64,000 bases of DNA, from positions 124,001-188,000 of the forward strand of contig NZ_CP038231.1 of assembly GCF_006542395.2 (NCBI RefSeq). Direction: 5' to 3'. The notes beneath the pieces are model-generated. The model was given only the letters and a program-made list of their open reading frames with translations. It searched no databases and was not told the origin of the DNA. Both the position numbers and the translations under genes were made by a program. Position 1 is the first letter of the stretch, and each line of letters begins with the position of its first letter. The DNA comes from Formicincola oecophyllae. GTDB taxonomy: Bacteria > Pseudomonadota > Alphaproteobacteria > Acetobacterales > Acetobacteraceae. Below are positions 1,513 through 6,803 of this stretch, piece by piece.

Positions 1513-2199
1513 TCAACCCCCCAGAAGCGGCCCTTCATCATCAGAAGGGTTGCCATCACCAGAGCGCATCCAACTGATGTCAGGTTCATCCTCTGCTGGT
1601 GGTGTTGCTGGTTCTGCTTCAGAAGGTGTCTCAGCCTTGGTGCGCGCTTTGCTTTCAGAACGGCGGCGGGTGGGTTTCTCCTGGCTGGGTTGGGCAGGTG
1701 TTGGCTCAGGCGCTGGGGCAGCCTGATTTAGGTCCTGATTTTCTGTGCTCTGGGCTTCATCCCGGTTGCGCTTGCCGCGCTCAGCACGATCAGGGCGCTG
1801 TTCATCACGGCGGCGGCGCTCGCGGCGCTCGTTTGGCTCTCGCTCCTGGCGCTCAGTGCGCTCACCATTCTGGCCTTGATTGCCGCCTTGATTGCCGCGC
1901 TGGCGTTCAGCGCGTTCGGCCTGGGCGTTTTGGCTGGCATGATTGATGGCACTGAGGACACGCGCGTAATGCTCCGCATGCTGGAAACAGGCCTCTGAGC
2001 GGATGCGGTCGCCAGCGCTGGCCATGTCACGCCCCATTTGGGCGTATTTTTCCTGCAGCTGCTGGGCTGTGCCGCGCAAGCGCACTTCGGGACCGTTGCT
2101 TTCAAACACATGATTGCGGTTCATCGGGGCCTGGCCGTTGCCCCCACGCCCGCTTTGAGGGCCGTTGTTGCGGTGATGACGGGTTCTCATGCGCTTCAT
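1513..2199 (-). CDS. DUF4167 domain protein
   Basis: A 228-residue protein. The N-terminal 90 residues carry the DUF4167 signature: a basic start (KRMRTRHH), then NHVFESNGPEVRLRGTAQQL, a helical segment with YAQMGRDMASAGDR, and a FQHAEHYARVL motif. The rest is low complexity, first Arg/Glu/Gln/Asn-rich and then Pro/Glu/Thr-rich, probably disordered. The family is found next to prmC in alphaproteobacteria; its function is unknown and nucleic-acid binding is only suggested by charge. I chose the ATG at 2199 because the family begins with this basic motif; the open frame extends further upstream without homology. It lies 118 bases after the prmC stop on the same strand. Confidence 0.85.
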   Translation of the reverse strand: MKRMRTRHHRNNGPQSGRGGNGQAPMNRNHVFESNGPEVRLRGTAQQLQEKYAQMGRDMASAGDRIRSEACFQHAEHYARVLSAINHASQNAQAERAERQRGNQGGNQGQNGERTERQEREPNERRERRRRDEQRPDRAERGKRNRDEAQSTENQDLNQAAPAPEPTPAQPSQEKPTRRRSESKARTKAETPSEAEPATPPAEDEPDISWMRSGDGNPSDDEGPLLGG

Positions 2200-2317
2200 T
2201 TCGGTGTCCAACCTCGCTGTCAGTGCGCCCCATGAACAGGCCAGTTGCCAAGCCTGGCGGGCAAAGATGTATGATGACTTCCAGGCAGCGCCCCAGCACC
2301 CAAAGGGGGGCGGCCTG

Positions 2318-3274
2318 TCAGGTGGTCTGGGGTTGGTCTGCGTGGGCGTGGCGCAACACAAGGGCACGTTCCACCCCGCCCAGGTCACGCAAACATGCGA
2401 CCACGCCCAGCCCCTGCTGGGCAGCCAGCGCGCTCACAGCGTCCCTCTGCCCCTGCCCAAGTTCCAGGATGGCGCAACCATGGGGCGCCATCAATTCTGG
2501 TAAGGCAGTACACAGCTCTTGGTAAGCCTGCAAGCCATCCTGCCCCGCCACCAAGGCGCGCCATGGCTCATGGTCGCGCACTTCTGCCATCAAATGGGGC
2601 ATTTCATCCTGCCGGATGTAAGGTGGGTTGCTCAACACCACGTCAAAGCCACCCTGCCCCCTGCCCAAGGCCTCTGCCCAGGACCCCACCATGAAAGCAG
2701 CCCGCCCAGCCAAACCATTGCGCGCAGCGTTGGCCTGGGCTTGGCGTGCGGCCCGCGCGGAAATATCCACCCCAACGCCCCAGGCCTGGGGGCATTCGCG
2801 CAACGCAGCCAGAAGCAGGCAGCCACTGCCAGTTCCCAAGTCCAGGATGGTGCGCACGCCCCCTGCCCCACCAAAACATTCTTCCACCTGCGCTAGAAGG
2901 GCCTCAATCAAGGTTTCGCTGTCAGGGCGCGGGATCAGCGTGTCACGGTTTACATTCAGCGTCAGCGACCAGAAATCACGCTGCCCTGTGACGTAAGCCC
3001 AAGGGACATGGCTGCAGCGCTGCCCAAGGGCGCTGATGAAATGGGCTAAGGGGGGGCCTTCCAGCCCTTCAAGGCGCAGAAGTCCCATGGGGCCGCAACC
3101 AGCAGCCCAGGCCAGGATAAGGCGCGCCTCCTGGCTTGGGCTTTCAATGCCAGACACTTTCAGGCGCACTGTGGCATGGCCAAGCAAGCTGCGTGTAGAA
3201 TAAAAGCCATCTGGGCTTAGAACATCTGCAAAGAGCGGGGATATGATTGCAGTGACCTTTTCAAAACGCTTCAA
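2318..3274 (-). CDS. prmC: Release factor glutamine methyltransferase PrmC
   Basis: PrmC N5-methylates the Gln of the GGQ motif of RF1 and RF2 with S-adenosylmethionine. The SAM-binding motif LDLGTGSGCLLLAAL sits mid-protein and the catalytic NPPYI motif follows; the N-terminal helical substrate-binding domain precedes them. The start is uncertain. There is no ATG before the conserved region: the first possible codon is TTG at 3274, which would overlap the divergent gene at 3243 by 32 bases, and a second TTG at 3187 would give a protein starting where family members normally do. In many relatives prmC directly follows prfA; here two plus-strand genes separate them. The function call is secure, the start is not. 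Confidence 0.9.
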   Translation of the reverse strand: MKRFEKVTAIISPLFADVLSPDGFYSTRSLLGHATVRLKVSGIESPSQEARLILAWAAGCGPMGLLRLEGLEGPPLAHFISALGQRCSHVPWAYVTGQRDFWSLTLNVNRDTLIPRPDSETLIEALLAQVEECFGGAGGVRTILDLGTGSGCLLLAALRECPQAWGVGVDISARAARQAQANAARNGLAGRAAFMVGSWAEALGRGQGGFDVVLSNPPYIRQDEMPHLMAEVRDHEPWRALVAGQDGLQAYQELCTALPELMAPHGCAILELGQGQRDAVSALAAQQGLGVVACLRDLGGVERALVLRHAHADQPQTT

Positions 3275-3785
3275 GGGGCGGGCGCGGAAGCTGGCACTGT
3301 GGGCTGGGGTAGGGTTGCTCAGCTGGGCTGGGTTGCCACAGTCCTTTCAGGCCCATGCCGCCAACCGCAAAAGCTTTGCCGACAAGGCGGCGCAACTGGC
3401 CACGGAAGGGCATTTTAACGTTCTGGACATGCAAGAGCCAGAGCAGCTTTCAGAAGATACGCGCCTTTATGTGGCAGGGCACCTGGTGGCCACCTTCCAT
3501 TTCCATGAACCTTACCAAACCAAGGAAGTGCGGGTGAACATCAGCAAGTTTGAAGTTAACGTGCCCTACACCCTCTGCGGCGTCATCAAGGAACGTGACG
3601 GCAAGGGCCATGTGGTGGTTTACCCCATCTCCAGCGATGGTATCCTGCACCATCCTGACGGGCGCCTTTACAAAACCTATGGGGAGAAGGGGTCGCCTGA
3701 CTTCAGGCTGTTGGACGATGACGACCCTGAGGCCGCCACCGTCATTAGAAGCCCATCCAGCGCCTGTCCAGCTGACTTGTCCTGA
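3243..3785 (+). CDS. Small secreted protein, paralogue of the next gene
   Basis: A 180-residue protein of no family I recognise. It starts with a Sec-type signal: basic n-region (KRFKGRARK), hydrophobic core LALWAGVGLLSWAGL and likely cleavage after QAHA near residue 40. The mature part aligns along its length with the next gene: both share LSE(D/V), LYVAG(H/R)LVATF, NVPY(T/S)LCG, a (I/T)SDG(I/L)LHHPDGR block, an acidic DP segment and a C-terminal CP.DLS end. Two conserved Cys could form one disulfide. The start overlaps the predicted 5' end of prmC on the other strand. It probably acts in the periplasm or outside the cell; function unknown. Confidence 0.75.
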   Translation: MIAVTFSKRFKGRARKLALWAGVGLLSWAGLPQSFQAHAANRKSFADKAAQLATEGHFNVLDMQEPEQLSEDTRLYVAGHLVATFHFHEPYQTKEVRVNISKFEVNVPYTLCGVIKERDGKGHVVVYPISSDGILHHPDGRLYKTYGEKGSPDFRLLDDDDPEAATVIRSPSSACPADLS

Positions 3786-3824
3786 CCAGCGCCCCGGCCC
3801 AACCCTCCAGTGTGAGAGGCCTTC

Positions 3825-4439
3825 ATGAATGCGCGTGTGACCACCCCCTACCCTGCCAGCCGCAGCCCTGTGGGCCTGGCTATAGCAGCCTTGGTTTGGG
3901 GACTGCTGTGCCCCCTGGCCATGGCTGCTCCAACCCCCGCCACCAGTGCTGGTACCAGCACTGGCACAGGCAAAAGCGCTCCGCAGGCGCCAGCCCTGCG
4001 GCGCTTAGCTGACGGCACCATGGTGGACAGCGCCTTTGACGGCGCCACCGGTGGCAGCTTCACCGTGATGGATGAACGCGCGCCCAATGAACTTTCAGAG
4101 GTTTCGCAGCTTTATGTGGCAGGGCGCCTGGTGGCCACGTTCAGGCTTAGCCTCAACCACAGCCGGGAACGCGTAATGGTGGCTGTGCCTGCTGGTTACG
4201 AGAACGTGCCTTACAGCCTTTGTGGCGCCATCACAGTGCGTGGTGACGATGGCAAAGTGACCACCCACCGCATCACCAGCGATGGGCTTCTCCATCACCC
4301 TGACGGACGTGATTACGAGGCCTTCATGGATGAGGAGTTCACGCGTTACGAGCTCCTCGACCCTAATGACCCTGACAGCGTGGAAATGGACAGGAACGTG
4401 CGCAGCCCTTCGCGCATTTGCCCCAACGATCTTTCCTGA
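3825..4439 (+). CDS. Small secreted protein, paralogue of the previous gene
   Basis: A 204-residue protein. A signal peptide with core LAIAALVWGLLCPLA is followed by a Thr/Ser/Gly-rich spacer and then the same domain as the gene 39 bases upstream (LYVAGRLVATF, NVPYSLCGAI, ITSDGLLHHPDGRDY, C-terminal CPNDLS). Ribosome site AGAGG lies 5 bases before the ATG. The pair looks like an old tandem duplication: the shared blocks are clear but the rest has diverged, and this copy has the longer linker. No catalytic motif is evident. The two probably form one transcript running against the flanking prfA and prmC. Confidence 0.8.
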   Translation: MNARVTTPYPASRSPVGLAIAALVWGLLCPLAMAAPTPATSAGTSTGTGKSAPQAPALRRLADGTMVDSAFDGATGGSFTVMDERAPNELSEVSQLYVAGRLVATFRLSLNHSRERVMVAVPAGYENVPYSLCGAITVRGDDGKVTTHRITSDGLLHHPDGRDYEAFMDEEFTRYELLDPNDPDSVEMDRNVRSPSRICPNDLS

Positions 4440-4478: not shown

Positions 4479-5549
4479 TCAAAGCCCCAGCGTTGCCAGG
4501 CGCTGGGCCTGGTCATGCTCTGTCAGGGCTGTGATGATCTCCTCCATATCCCCCCCCATGATGTGGGGCAGGCGGTGCGTGGTAAGGTTGATGCGGTGGT
4601 CCGTCACCCTGCCTTGGGGGAAGTTGTAAGTGCGGATGCGCTCTGAACGGTCGCCTGTGCCCACCTGGTCGCGGCGGGCGCTGGCACGTTCCTCATGGGC
4701 GGTGCTGCGGGCTTTCTCAAACAAGCGTGCGCGCAGGATGGCCATGGCCTTTTCGCGGTTGCGGTGCTGGCTGCGCTCCTCCTGCATGGCCACCACCACA
4801 CCTGTTGGCAGGTGGGTGATGCGTACGGCGCTCTCCGTTTTGTTGACATGCTGCCCGCCCGCGCCAGAGGCCCTGTAGACGTCTATGCGCAGGTCGCGCT
4901 GGTCTATGGCCACGTCAACCTCACAGGCTTCAGGCAGCACAGCAACCGTCACAGTGGAGGTGTGGATGCGGCCCTGGCTTTCCGTGGCTGGCACGCGCTG
5001 TACCCTGTGGACGCCTGATTCATGCTTGAGATGCGCAAACACCCCTTTGCCTGTGATGCTGGCCACCCCTTCCTTAAGGCCACCAAGTTCACTAGGGGTG
5101 AGGGAGAGGGCCTCAAAGCGCCAGCCCTGGCTTTCCGCGTAGCGCCTGTAAAGCTCCAGCAGCTCCCCAGCAAACAAGGCGGCCTCATCACCGCCAGCGG
5201 CAGGGCGGACCTCCAGGATGGCGCTGCGCTCATCGGTTTCATCGCGGGGCAGCAGGGCCAGCTTCATGGCCTTCTCAAGGGCAGGCAAGGCCCCTTCAAG
5301 CCGTTGCACTTCAGCACGCGCCAGGGGGGCCATCTCCGGATCATGCAGAAGGGCCTGCGCGTCCCCATGTTGGCGCAAAGCGTCCTGCCAAGCACGGATG
5401 GCCGCAACGGGCTTTTCAAGCGCAGCATAATCCTGCGCCAAAGCGGCCATGTCCTGCCCTGCCGTCTCCCCAGCGCCCATCATGGCCTGCAGTTCCTCAA
5501 AGCGGGCGATGATGGGCGCCAAATGAAGGTGAAAAGCTTCCTCTCCCAT
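4479..5549 (-). CDS. prfA: Peptide chain release factor 1
   Basis: A 356-residue class I release factor that reads UAA and UAG and triggers peptide release. The GGQ hydrolysis motif is present in [19 protein letters not shown] and the RF1-type codon-recognition tripeptide PAT in [12 protein letters not shown], which separates it from RF2 (SPF). Length is standard. The ATG lies 3 bases after the hisS stop, and AGGGG inside the hisS end sits 7 bases ahead, so the two are translationally linked. Its modifying enzyme PrmC is encoded 1.2 kb further on. Confidence 0.97.
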
Positions 5550-5552
5550 TGA

Positions 5553-6803
5553 TCAGCCCCTAGGCTTGGCGCTTTCCAAAGCCTGCAGCAAGGCGCCCTC
5601 TGGCAAGGTTTGCTGAGTGCGGTCTTCCAGGTTGCGCAGCTGCACCTGGCCTTGGGCCAGCTCCTCCTCACCCACGAACACGGCAAGCTTAGCGCCCGCC
5701 TTGAGGGTGCGTTCAAGGCGTTTTTTCATGTTGCCGCGCGTTTCAATCTGCACAACATGACCAGCCCGGCGCAGTTGGCGCGCCAATTCAGCGGCCTTGG
5801 CTGTGGTGGCGCCCCCCATGGGCAGGATGGCCAGTGGGCTGGTGGATTGGTGGGGGGCCTCAATCAAGGCTGAAAGGCGCTCCACCCCCGCAGCCCAGCC
5901 AATGGCCGGCACGGCGGGACCGCCCATTTCAGCCACTAGGTCCTCATAGCGGCCACCAGCCAGGACGGTGCCCTGGGCGCCAAGCTTGTCGGTGACGAAC
6001 TCGAACGCGGTGTGGCTGTAATAGTCAAGGCCACGCACAATCAGCGGGTTGTCACGCCACACCACCCCAAAAGCGCTTAAAGCTTGGCGCACATCATCCC
6101 AGAACCGCTTGGATTCGTCATCAAGGTAACCAGCAAACGCTGGGGCGTCCGCCACCAGGGCTTTGTCGCCCTCATGCTTGCTGTCCAAAATGCGCAGGGG
6201 GTTGACGCGCAGGCGCGCGCGGCTGTCAGCGGAGAGGTCGTTTTCAAAACGGGAGAAATGCGCAATCAACGCCTCCCGCCAGGCCTGGCGGCTAGCCTTG
6301 TTGCCCAACGTGTTGAGCTCCAGCGTGACGTCATCCCCCAGCCCCAGGGCCTCGAGGAAGTCTGCGGCCATGGCGATGGTCTCAGCATCGCGCAGGGAAT
6401 CGTCAGCGCCCAGGAACTCAGCGCCAATTTGGTGGAACTCCCTGTAGCGGCCTTTTTGCGGACGCTCATAGCGGAACATGGGTCCTTGGTAGAACACGCG
6501 CTGGGGCAGCGTTTGCGTTAAGCCATTGGTAACCAAGGCGCGGCAGATACCCGCTGTGCCCTCAGGGCGCAGGGTGAGTGAATCACCGCTGCGGTCCTCA
6601 AAGCTGTACATTTCTTTGGAGACGACATCGGAACTTTCCCCAAGGGAGCGGGCGAAAACCCCTGTCTCCTCAAAAATGGGGGTTTCCCATTCAGTGAAGC
6701 CGTAACGGGCAAAGACGCGCCGCCCCGTTTCCACAACATGGCGGAAGCGGGCCATCTCCGCCCCAAGAAGGTCGTGGGTGCCTCTAGGGGGACGCATGGC
6801 CAT
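5553..6803 (-). CDS. hisS: Histidyl-tRNA synthetase
   Basis: A 416-residue class II synthetase. It opens with PPRGTHDLLGAEM, has motif 2 around FRYERPQKGRYREFHQIGAE and the histidine-specific signature RGLDYYSHTAFEF, and ends with an anticodon-binding domain (AILPMG onwards). The start at 6803 has GGAG 8 bases upstream. It is followed at once by prfA and preceded by ispG 110 bases upstream on the same strand. Confidence 0.97.
   Translation of the reverse strand: MAMRPPRGTHDLLGAEMARFRHVVETGRRVFARYGFTEWETPIFEETGVFARSLGESSDVVSKEMYSFEDRSGDSLTLRPEGTAGICRALVTNGLTQTLPQRVFYQGPMFRYERPQKGRYREFHQIGAEFLGADDSLRDAETIAMAADFLEALGLGDDVTLELNTLGNKASRQAWREALIAHFSRFENDLSADSRARLRVNPLRILDSKHEGDKALVADAPAFAGYLDDESKRFWDDVRQALSAFGVVWRDNPLIVRGLDYYSHTAFEFVTDKLGAQGTVLAGGRYEDLVAEMGGPAVPAIGWAAGVERLSALIEAPHQSTSPLAILPMGGATTAKAAELARQLRRAGHVVQIETRGNMKKRLERTLKAGAKLAVFVGEEELAQGQVQLRNLEDRTQQTLPEGALLQALESAKPRG

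Follow-up and report, generated by a model that had tools for sequence, protein, structure and literature searches.

The genes for peptide chain release factor 1 (prfA) and the release-factor methyltransferase (prmC, also hemK) are separated in this genome by two open reading frames (ORFs), A and B, on the opposite strand to both. The window analysed here is the whole stretch of 64,000 nucleotides in which this junction lies. The initial annotation described the two ORFs as tandem secreted paralogues without a recognised family, and attributed them to a lineage-specific gain followed by duplication. These claims raise the question of how old the gene is at the junction, which part of the arrangement is particular to the window lineage, and what the encoded proteins may do. 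Here we describe the locus, its history among relatives, the predicted structure of the products and the readings of their role.

Tandem paralogues at the prmC-prfA junction

The coordinates, the Pfam assignments of the flanking genes and the alignment of the two products confirm a tandem pair of paralogues between prfA and prmC (Table 1). ORF A is followed head to tail by ORF B with a spacing of 39 bases. The products are 40% identical over 166 amino acids (E 2e-38), and all four of the motifs that had been named as common to them (LYVAG.LVATF, NVPY.LCG, SDG.LHHPDGR and CP.DLS) are present in both. Both proteins exceed the median length of 154 amino acids for the 111 family proteins, and their N-terminal parts are longer. 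The linker between the signal peptide and the beta domain of B is rich in Ala, Thr, Ser and Gly. A long low-complexity stretch lies within positions 3825-4030.

Table 1. Coordinates of the genes at and around the prmC-prfA junction (window positions)
Feature	Position	Strand	Description
DUF4167 gene, far side of prmC	1513-2388	-	Pfam; conserved neighbourhood (synteny)
prmC (hemK), release-factor methyltransferase	2318-3274	-	Pfam PrmC_N E 1.6e-10 and methyltransferase domains
ORF A, faster-evolving paralogue	3243-3785	+	180 aa; signal-like start, beta domain; Cys112, Cys175
ORF B, more conservative paralogue	3825-4439	+	204 aa; signal-like start, linker, beta domain; Cys133, Cys199
prfA, peptide chain release factor 1	4479-5549	-	Pfam PCRF 7e-62, RF-1 2e-45; convergent with ORF B
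hisS	5553-6803	-	Pfam; conserved neighbourhood (synteny)

The longest ORF of prmC has a TTG start and overlaps the start of ORF A (window 3204-3274). Because the PrmC match opens at residue 22 or beyond in most relatives, the true prmC start is probably further in, and prmC and ORF A would then be divergent and nearly gapless. A scan for promoters and terminators gave no signal exceeding shuffled controls. No further copy of A or B was found at E 0.001 in the genome itself (1.96 Mb in three contigs). No RNA family was found on the two small contigs (8000 of the 9362 bases of one were scanned), and the larger of the two gave no plasmid match.

The relationship of the two copies was resolved with an alignment of 84 rows, which comprises A, B and 82 relatives. 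Two relatives with broken genes (G149 and G309) were dropped, as were 27 of the remaining 109 that were more than 93% alike by ungapped comparison. In the resulting tree A and B are sisters (support 100/99), nested in a 14-row group (90/98) of otherwise single-copy relatives. When the 84-row profile was run against 397 genomes from this bacterial family, an intact pair was found only in the window genome. The other matching genomes gave one match each, save G149 (L131) and G309 (L122), where one broken copy is seen as two pieces. The duplication is therefore borne out by the sister relationship and by the single copies elsewhere. The two broken copies are either pseudogenes or sequencing errors.

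The copies have diverged asymmetrically since the tandem duplication, because the branch of A is far longer (1.31 vs 0.29 for B, or 4.5 times) and more conserved columns are changed in A than in B. Taking the 34 columns with agreement in 80% or more of the 82 relatives, we find 6 that are changed in A only, 2 in B only and 4 in both. The changes found only in A are, in the numbering of B, Glu89 to Gln, Leu108 to Phe, Thr137 to Lys, His148 to Tyr, Ala166 to Thr and Phe172 to Ser. Both copies retain the Cys pair and Glu92.

Distribution, inheritance and loss

Two profiles were used to trace the gene. Profile A1, for which A and B were the only input, matched 112 of the 397 same-family genomes, that is, 111 beyond the window. 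Profile A2, built from the 84 rows, matched 113 of the 397, in 33 of 102 genera; the A2 scores of A and B themselves are circular, as both are A2 rows. Matches of B to relatives by sequence reach E 4.8e-34. In a sample of the class (385 genomes, 22 of them listed by handle, the number outside the same bacterial family not being shown by the listing) the only matches were to the window genome and to one genome of the same family. In these samples the gene appears confined to some members of a single bacterial family, which we take to be the acetic acid bacteria (Acetobacteraceae). Two candidates were set aside. G007 has a match to B at E 2e-4, yet is missed by the profile and was treated as a non-holder, and a match at a Devosia locus covers residues 1-38 only.

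The flanks were mapped at 112 loci, which are the A1 holders including the window; G075, the 113th genome found with A2, was left out. At 97 of the 112 loci (96 of the 111 others) the gene is enclosed by prmC on one side and prfA on the other, with its strand opposite to theirs. The packing is tight, with a median of 18 bases from the stop of the gene to the stop of prfA (n=96). At the remaining loci the stretch fetched showed only prmC (7 loci), only prfA (1) or neither (6, including G151, which is cut by a contig end). In G001 the gene adjoins prmC and prfA is about 6 kb off. Membership of A and B in this junction-protein family is evident from sequence similarity, from position and strand, and from the Cys pair, the conserved Glu and the signal-like N-terminus. 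Five distant members (L025, L026, L124, L126 and L127) are sited away from prmC-prfA and have no common neighbour; genes seen beside them by eye include uppP-like, rarA-like and acyl-CoA dehydrogenase-like ones.

Since 97 of 112 loci share one junction, most holders have inherited the position. The gene is old there and was not recently gained. The lineage-specific gain of the initial annotation is thus contradicted by the relatives, since 96 of the 111 further loci have a single copy of the gene in this position. The comparison of junctions across relatives separates two things that had been proposed together: the duplication is indeed lineage-specific, and a gain at this level is rejected, the locus being inherited. 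Only the second copy is new and particular to the window lineage. The original gain would be older, shared by a large part of the bacterial family.

The reverse comparison used 30 PrfA loci, one per genus, of which 19 come from genomes without the gene; distances were read off by eye. The matched ends of prfA and prmC are less than 150 bases apart in 16 of these 19 junctions, all within the same family, and within that scope the adjacency of the two genes anticipated by the initial annotation is upheld. The three exceptions are L155 (291 bases, with a partial PrmC match), L149 (593 bases) and L162 (PrmC not seen). Because 16 of the 19 hold prfA and prmC adjacent, the gene is an extra piece inserted within a pair that is otherwise adjacent. 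G006 holds the gene elsewhere in its genome, yet its prfA and prmC are adjacent.

The gene also seems to have been lost or broken in places. The nearest sampled genome to the window in the PrfA+HisS tree is G029 (L142; support 96/94, on a long branch and with unusual composition). This 1.9 Mb genome lacks the gene, and its prmC is about 20 bases from prfA. The absence from this nearest sampled relative, together with the adjoining of prmC and prfA, suggests that a clean loss is likely. In genus g65 three genomes of the class sample have no match and a fourth, from the family sample, has one. Four changes are needed to explain the holder state on the 30-genus PrfA+HisS tree, so the history is not a single clean gain; two holders in that tree (G006 and G019) have distant members sited off the junction. 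The gene appears dispensable, and essentiality is unlikely, because it is absent in G029 and the three g65 genomes and broken in G149.

Predicted export, conservation and fold

Both ORFs open with a hydrophobic signal-like segment, in agreement with the signal peptides first proposed. By a simple measure all but one of the 111 family proteins have such an N-terminus (110, with A and B among them), and a small residue at -3 with Ala at -1 is seen in 99. Start codons of the relatives were chosen by a rule that favours signal-like starts, and five were trimmed by hand; because of this rule the signal-type counts lean upward. No second membrane segment and no Tat-like motif was found in any of the 111. 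A lipobox-like pattern is present in 7 of them, neither A nor B. Export of A and B as lipoproteins or by the Tat route was rejected, as neither carries a lipobox and the Tat-like motif occurs in 0 of 111.

The two conserved Cys of the initial annotation are found in 84 of 84 aligned rows. Judging from this conservation, they probably form one disulfide, which would tie the LCG strand to the C-terminal tail. The dN/dS ratio has a median of 0.10 (range 0.02-0.29) over 56 close pairs of relatives, which are non-independent; for A no value was obtainable, as it has no close relative in the sample. The gene of the relatives is under purifying selection. Base composition by codon position fits coding, which is weak evidence alone. 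Paralogy, homologues and dN/dS rule out spurious ORFs.

No recognised family had been assigned to the pair, and this stands: A and B fall below the Pfam and NCBIfam cut-offs. The best Pfam match of A is DUF2863 (13.9 bits vs a cut-off of 25) and that of B is ACCA_BT (13.5 vs 27), and NCBIfam gave none for either at E up to 10. When the 84 members were scanned singly, with curated cut-offs seen for the first member only, the commonest Pfam match was Tcp10_C (9 of 84, best E 1.9e-4) and the best NCBIfam match had E 0.0031. Among PDB sequences a profile search reached E 0.044 at best (eS21 ribosomal proteins), and for the pair PHROGs matches were seen at E 0.27 and 0.03, with none below 0.03. The DUF2863, ACCA_BT, Tcp10_C, eS21 and PHROG matches are weak and were set aside as chance. 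PADLOC returned 0 families for A and B at E up to 1, and so gives no sign of an anti-phage defence protein. B has no match among plasmids, phages or viral contigs, and an origin from any of these was likewise set aside.

Structure prediction yielded a confident all-beta domain. For B, AlphaFold2 run on the 84-row alignment gave a model whose pLDDT averages 80.6 and rises to 89-97 (block means) across residues 71-190; the model of mature A has a pLDDT of 88.8. Both models are almost all strand, with nine to ten strands in a domain of about 120 residues. Confidence is low at the N-terminal linker and reduced in the tail around the second Cys (block mean 76 in B).

Foldseek gave no match in the PDB at E 0.001 for either model, and no viral model matched B at E < 0.001. 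The check by profile search and structure prediction that had been suggested thus leaves the pair with a confident domain and no named family. The best row for B is 2mca (E 5.8e-3, probability 0.99), which is rank 2 for A (E 0.063) behind the cytolysin 1s3r (E 0.028). The beta domains of cholesterol-dependent cytolysins also align (Z 6.2). The listing names 2mca merely as a protein of Eubacterium rectale (YP_002937094.1); its likeness to the two models has Z 6.1 and 6.6, with 2-14% identity and no match at E 0.001. The top VIA-align rows are PUD-1 (Z 7.1), the PepT1 ectodomain (6.6), the HGSNAT luminal domain (6.6), TssJ1 (6.4) and transthyretin (6.4). These five have the general beta-sandwich arrangement of A and B, at 4-12% identity, and none appeared in the PDB sequence-profile search. 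The best Z per family is 5.7-7.1. Because these values are all below 8 and tied, the matches would reflect a common arrangement and no kinship; nor would the folds listed argue against any other fold.

The likeness to transthyretin, with best Z values of 6.0 (B) and 6.4 (A), is tied with that to unrelated beta domains. Transthyretin and 5-hydroxyisourate hydrolase are absent from the 12 Pfam families that any of the 84 members hits at E 0.1 and from the 15 PDB sequences matched up to E 10. Unlike the T6SS lipoprotein TssJ, A and B have no lipobox Cys. The single-copy junction protein of the relatives has the same domain, junction, strand arrangement and Cys pair as A and B. It differs from them in having one copy rather than two, a shorter N-terminal part and no diverged copy A.

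Proposed role and its alternatives

The locus and the fold are well supported, and the biochemical role is our inference. Our leading reading, tentative and falling somewhat short of even confidence, is that the gene encodes a soluble periplasmic binding or accessory protein that is Sec-exported, disulfide-locked, non-catalytic, and useful but dispensable, and that is duplicated and diverging here. A single old gene at the prmC-prfA junction, oriented against both neighbours, would have been duplicated in tandem in the window lineage. Its product would be exported, presumably by Sec with cleavage, as a soluble all-beta domain, which one disulfide may lock in its mature periplasmic form. Its candidate partners are a small ligand and a second protein of the envelope. 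The ancestral role has probably stayed with copy B. Copy A, altered at conserved positions with both Cys kept, may be drifting to a changed specificity. The placement beside translation-termination genes would be inherited packing with no functional coupling. Several points stand against this reading: Asp83, Glu89, Glu92, Tyr130 and His148 could equally form an active site, the fold matches are low and tied and include cytolysin beta domains, the second Cys of the proposed disulfide is in the less confident tail, and the five distant members off the junction have no common neighbour that hints at a role. A broader proposal, possible and on balance doubtful, is that these proteins represent an undescribed disulfide-locked family of exported beta proteins, characteristic of much of this bacterial family, with an envelope function suited to an acid-producing, periplasm-oxidising lifestyle, the second copy having been neofunctionalised in the small window genome.

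A small periplasmic enzyme, with acidic and His/Tyr residues that are conserved in the beta domain as its active site, is unlikely. Among the other 82 rows Glu92 is invariant (82), and Tyr130 (81), Glu89 (80), Asp83 (79) and His148 (67) are widely kept; the transthyretin-fold 5-hydroxyisourate hydrolase 3qva is also among the structural alignments (Z 5.8). However, those Z values are low and tied, no enzyme family was reached by sequence with A or B or by the PDB profile, and in paralogue A two of these residues are replaced, Glu89 by Gln and His148 by Tyr. The fast branch of that copy (1.31 vs 0.29) would also suit an inhibitor or interaction protein (lysozyme- or protease-inhibitor type) that is secreted or periplasmic, faces a host or competitor and is expanding in an arms race. 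The small size, predicted export, beta fold and conserved Cys pair are of the right kind, and lectins occur among the Foldseek rows for B (BclA at E 0.016, but with an rmsd of 16 A). The relatives, however, keep a single copy at a fixed core locus under purifying selection (dN/dS 0.10), B is unmatched in plasmids, phages and viral contigs, and neither A nor B is matched in PADLOC, and we regard the inhibitor as quite improbable.

The remaining alternatives concern the locus rather than the product. The position maintained in 97 of 112 loci, with short gaps on either side, would fit functional coupling to prmC or prfA through a divergent promoter or convergent antisense transcription. Such coupling is nonetheless very hard to credit for a product predicted to be exported, when prfA and prmC are adjacent without the gene in 16 of 19 non-holder junctions and five holders carry the gene elsewhere, one of them (G006) with prfA and prmC side by side. 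Almost no credence is left for a recent lineage-specific gain followed by duplication. The duplication is real, and no holder was sampled outside this one bacterial family, of which only part has the gene, but 96 other genomes have the gene at the same junction, and A and B are nested among them.

What seemed an oddity of a single genome is now a conserved, taxonomically restricted exported protein for which we found no assigned function. The fixed locus makes the gene simple to locate and delete in model relatives, and the result is useful for annotation. The window genome offers a natural test, with one conservative and one fast copy, while its nearest sampled relative is without the gene.

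We found no published function for the gene, in a literature search that would miss a paper using a locus tag alone. The accessible parts of PMC12041372 and PMC10727944 hold no mention of it that we could find. PMC2241609 lists 14 proteins as unique to Acetobacteraceae. PMC8602642 describes 550 of 3283 genes as undisrupted in Gluconobacter oxydans B58, where a hemK mutant exists.
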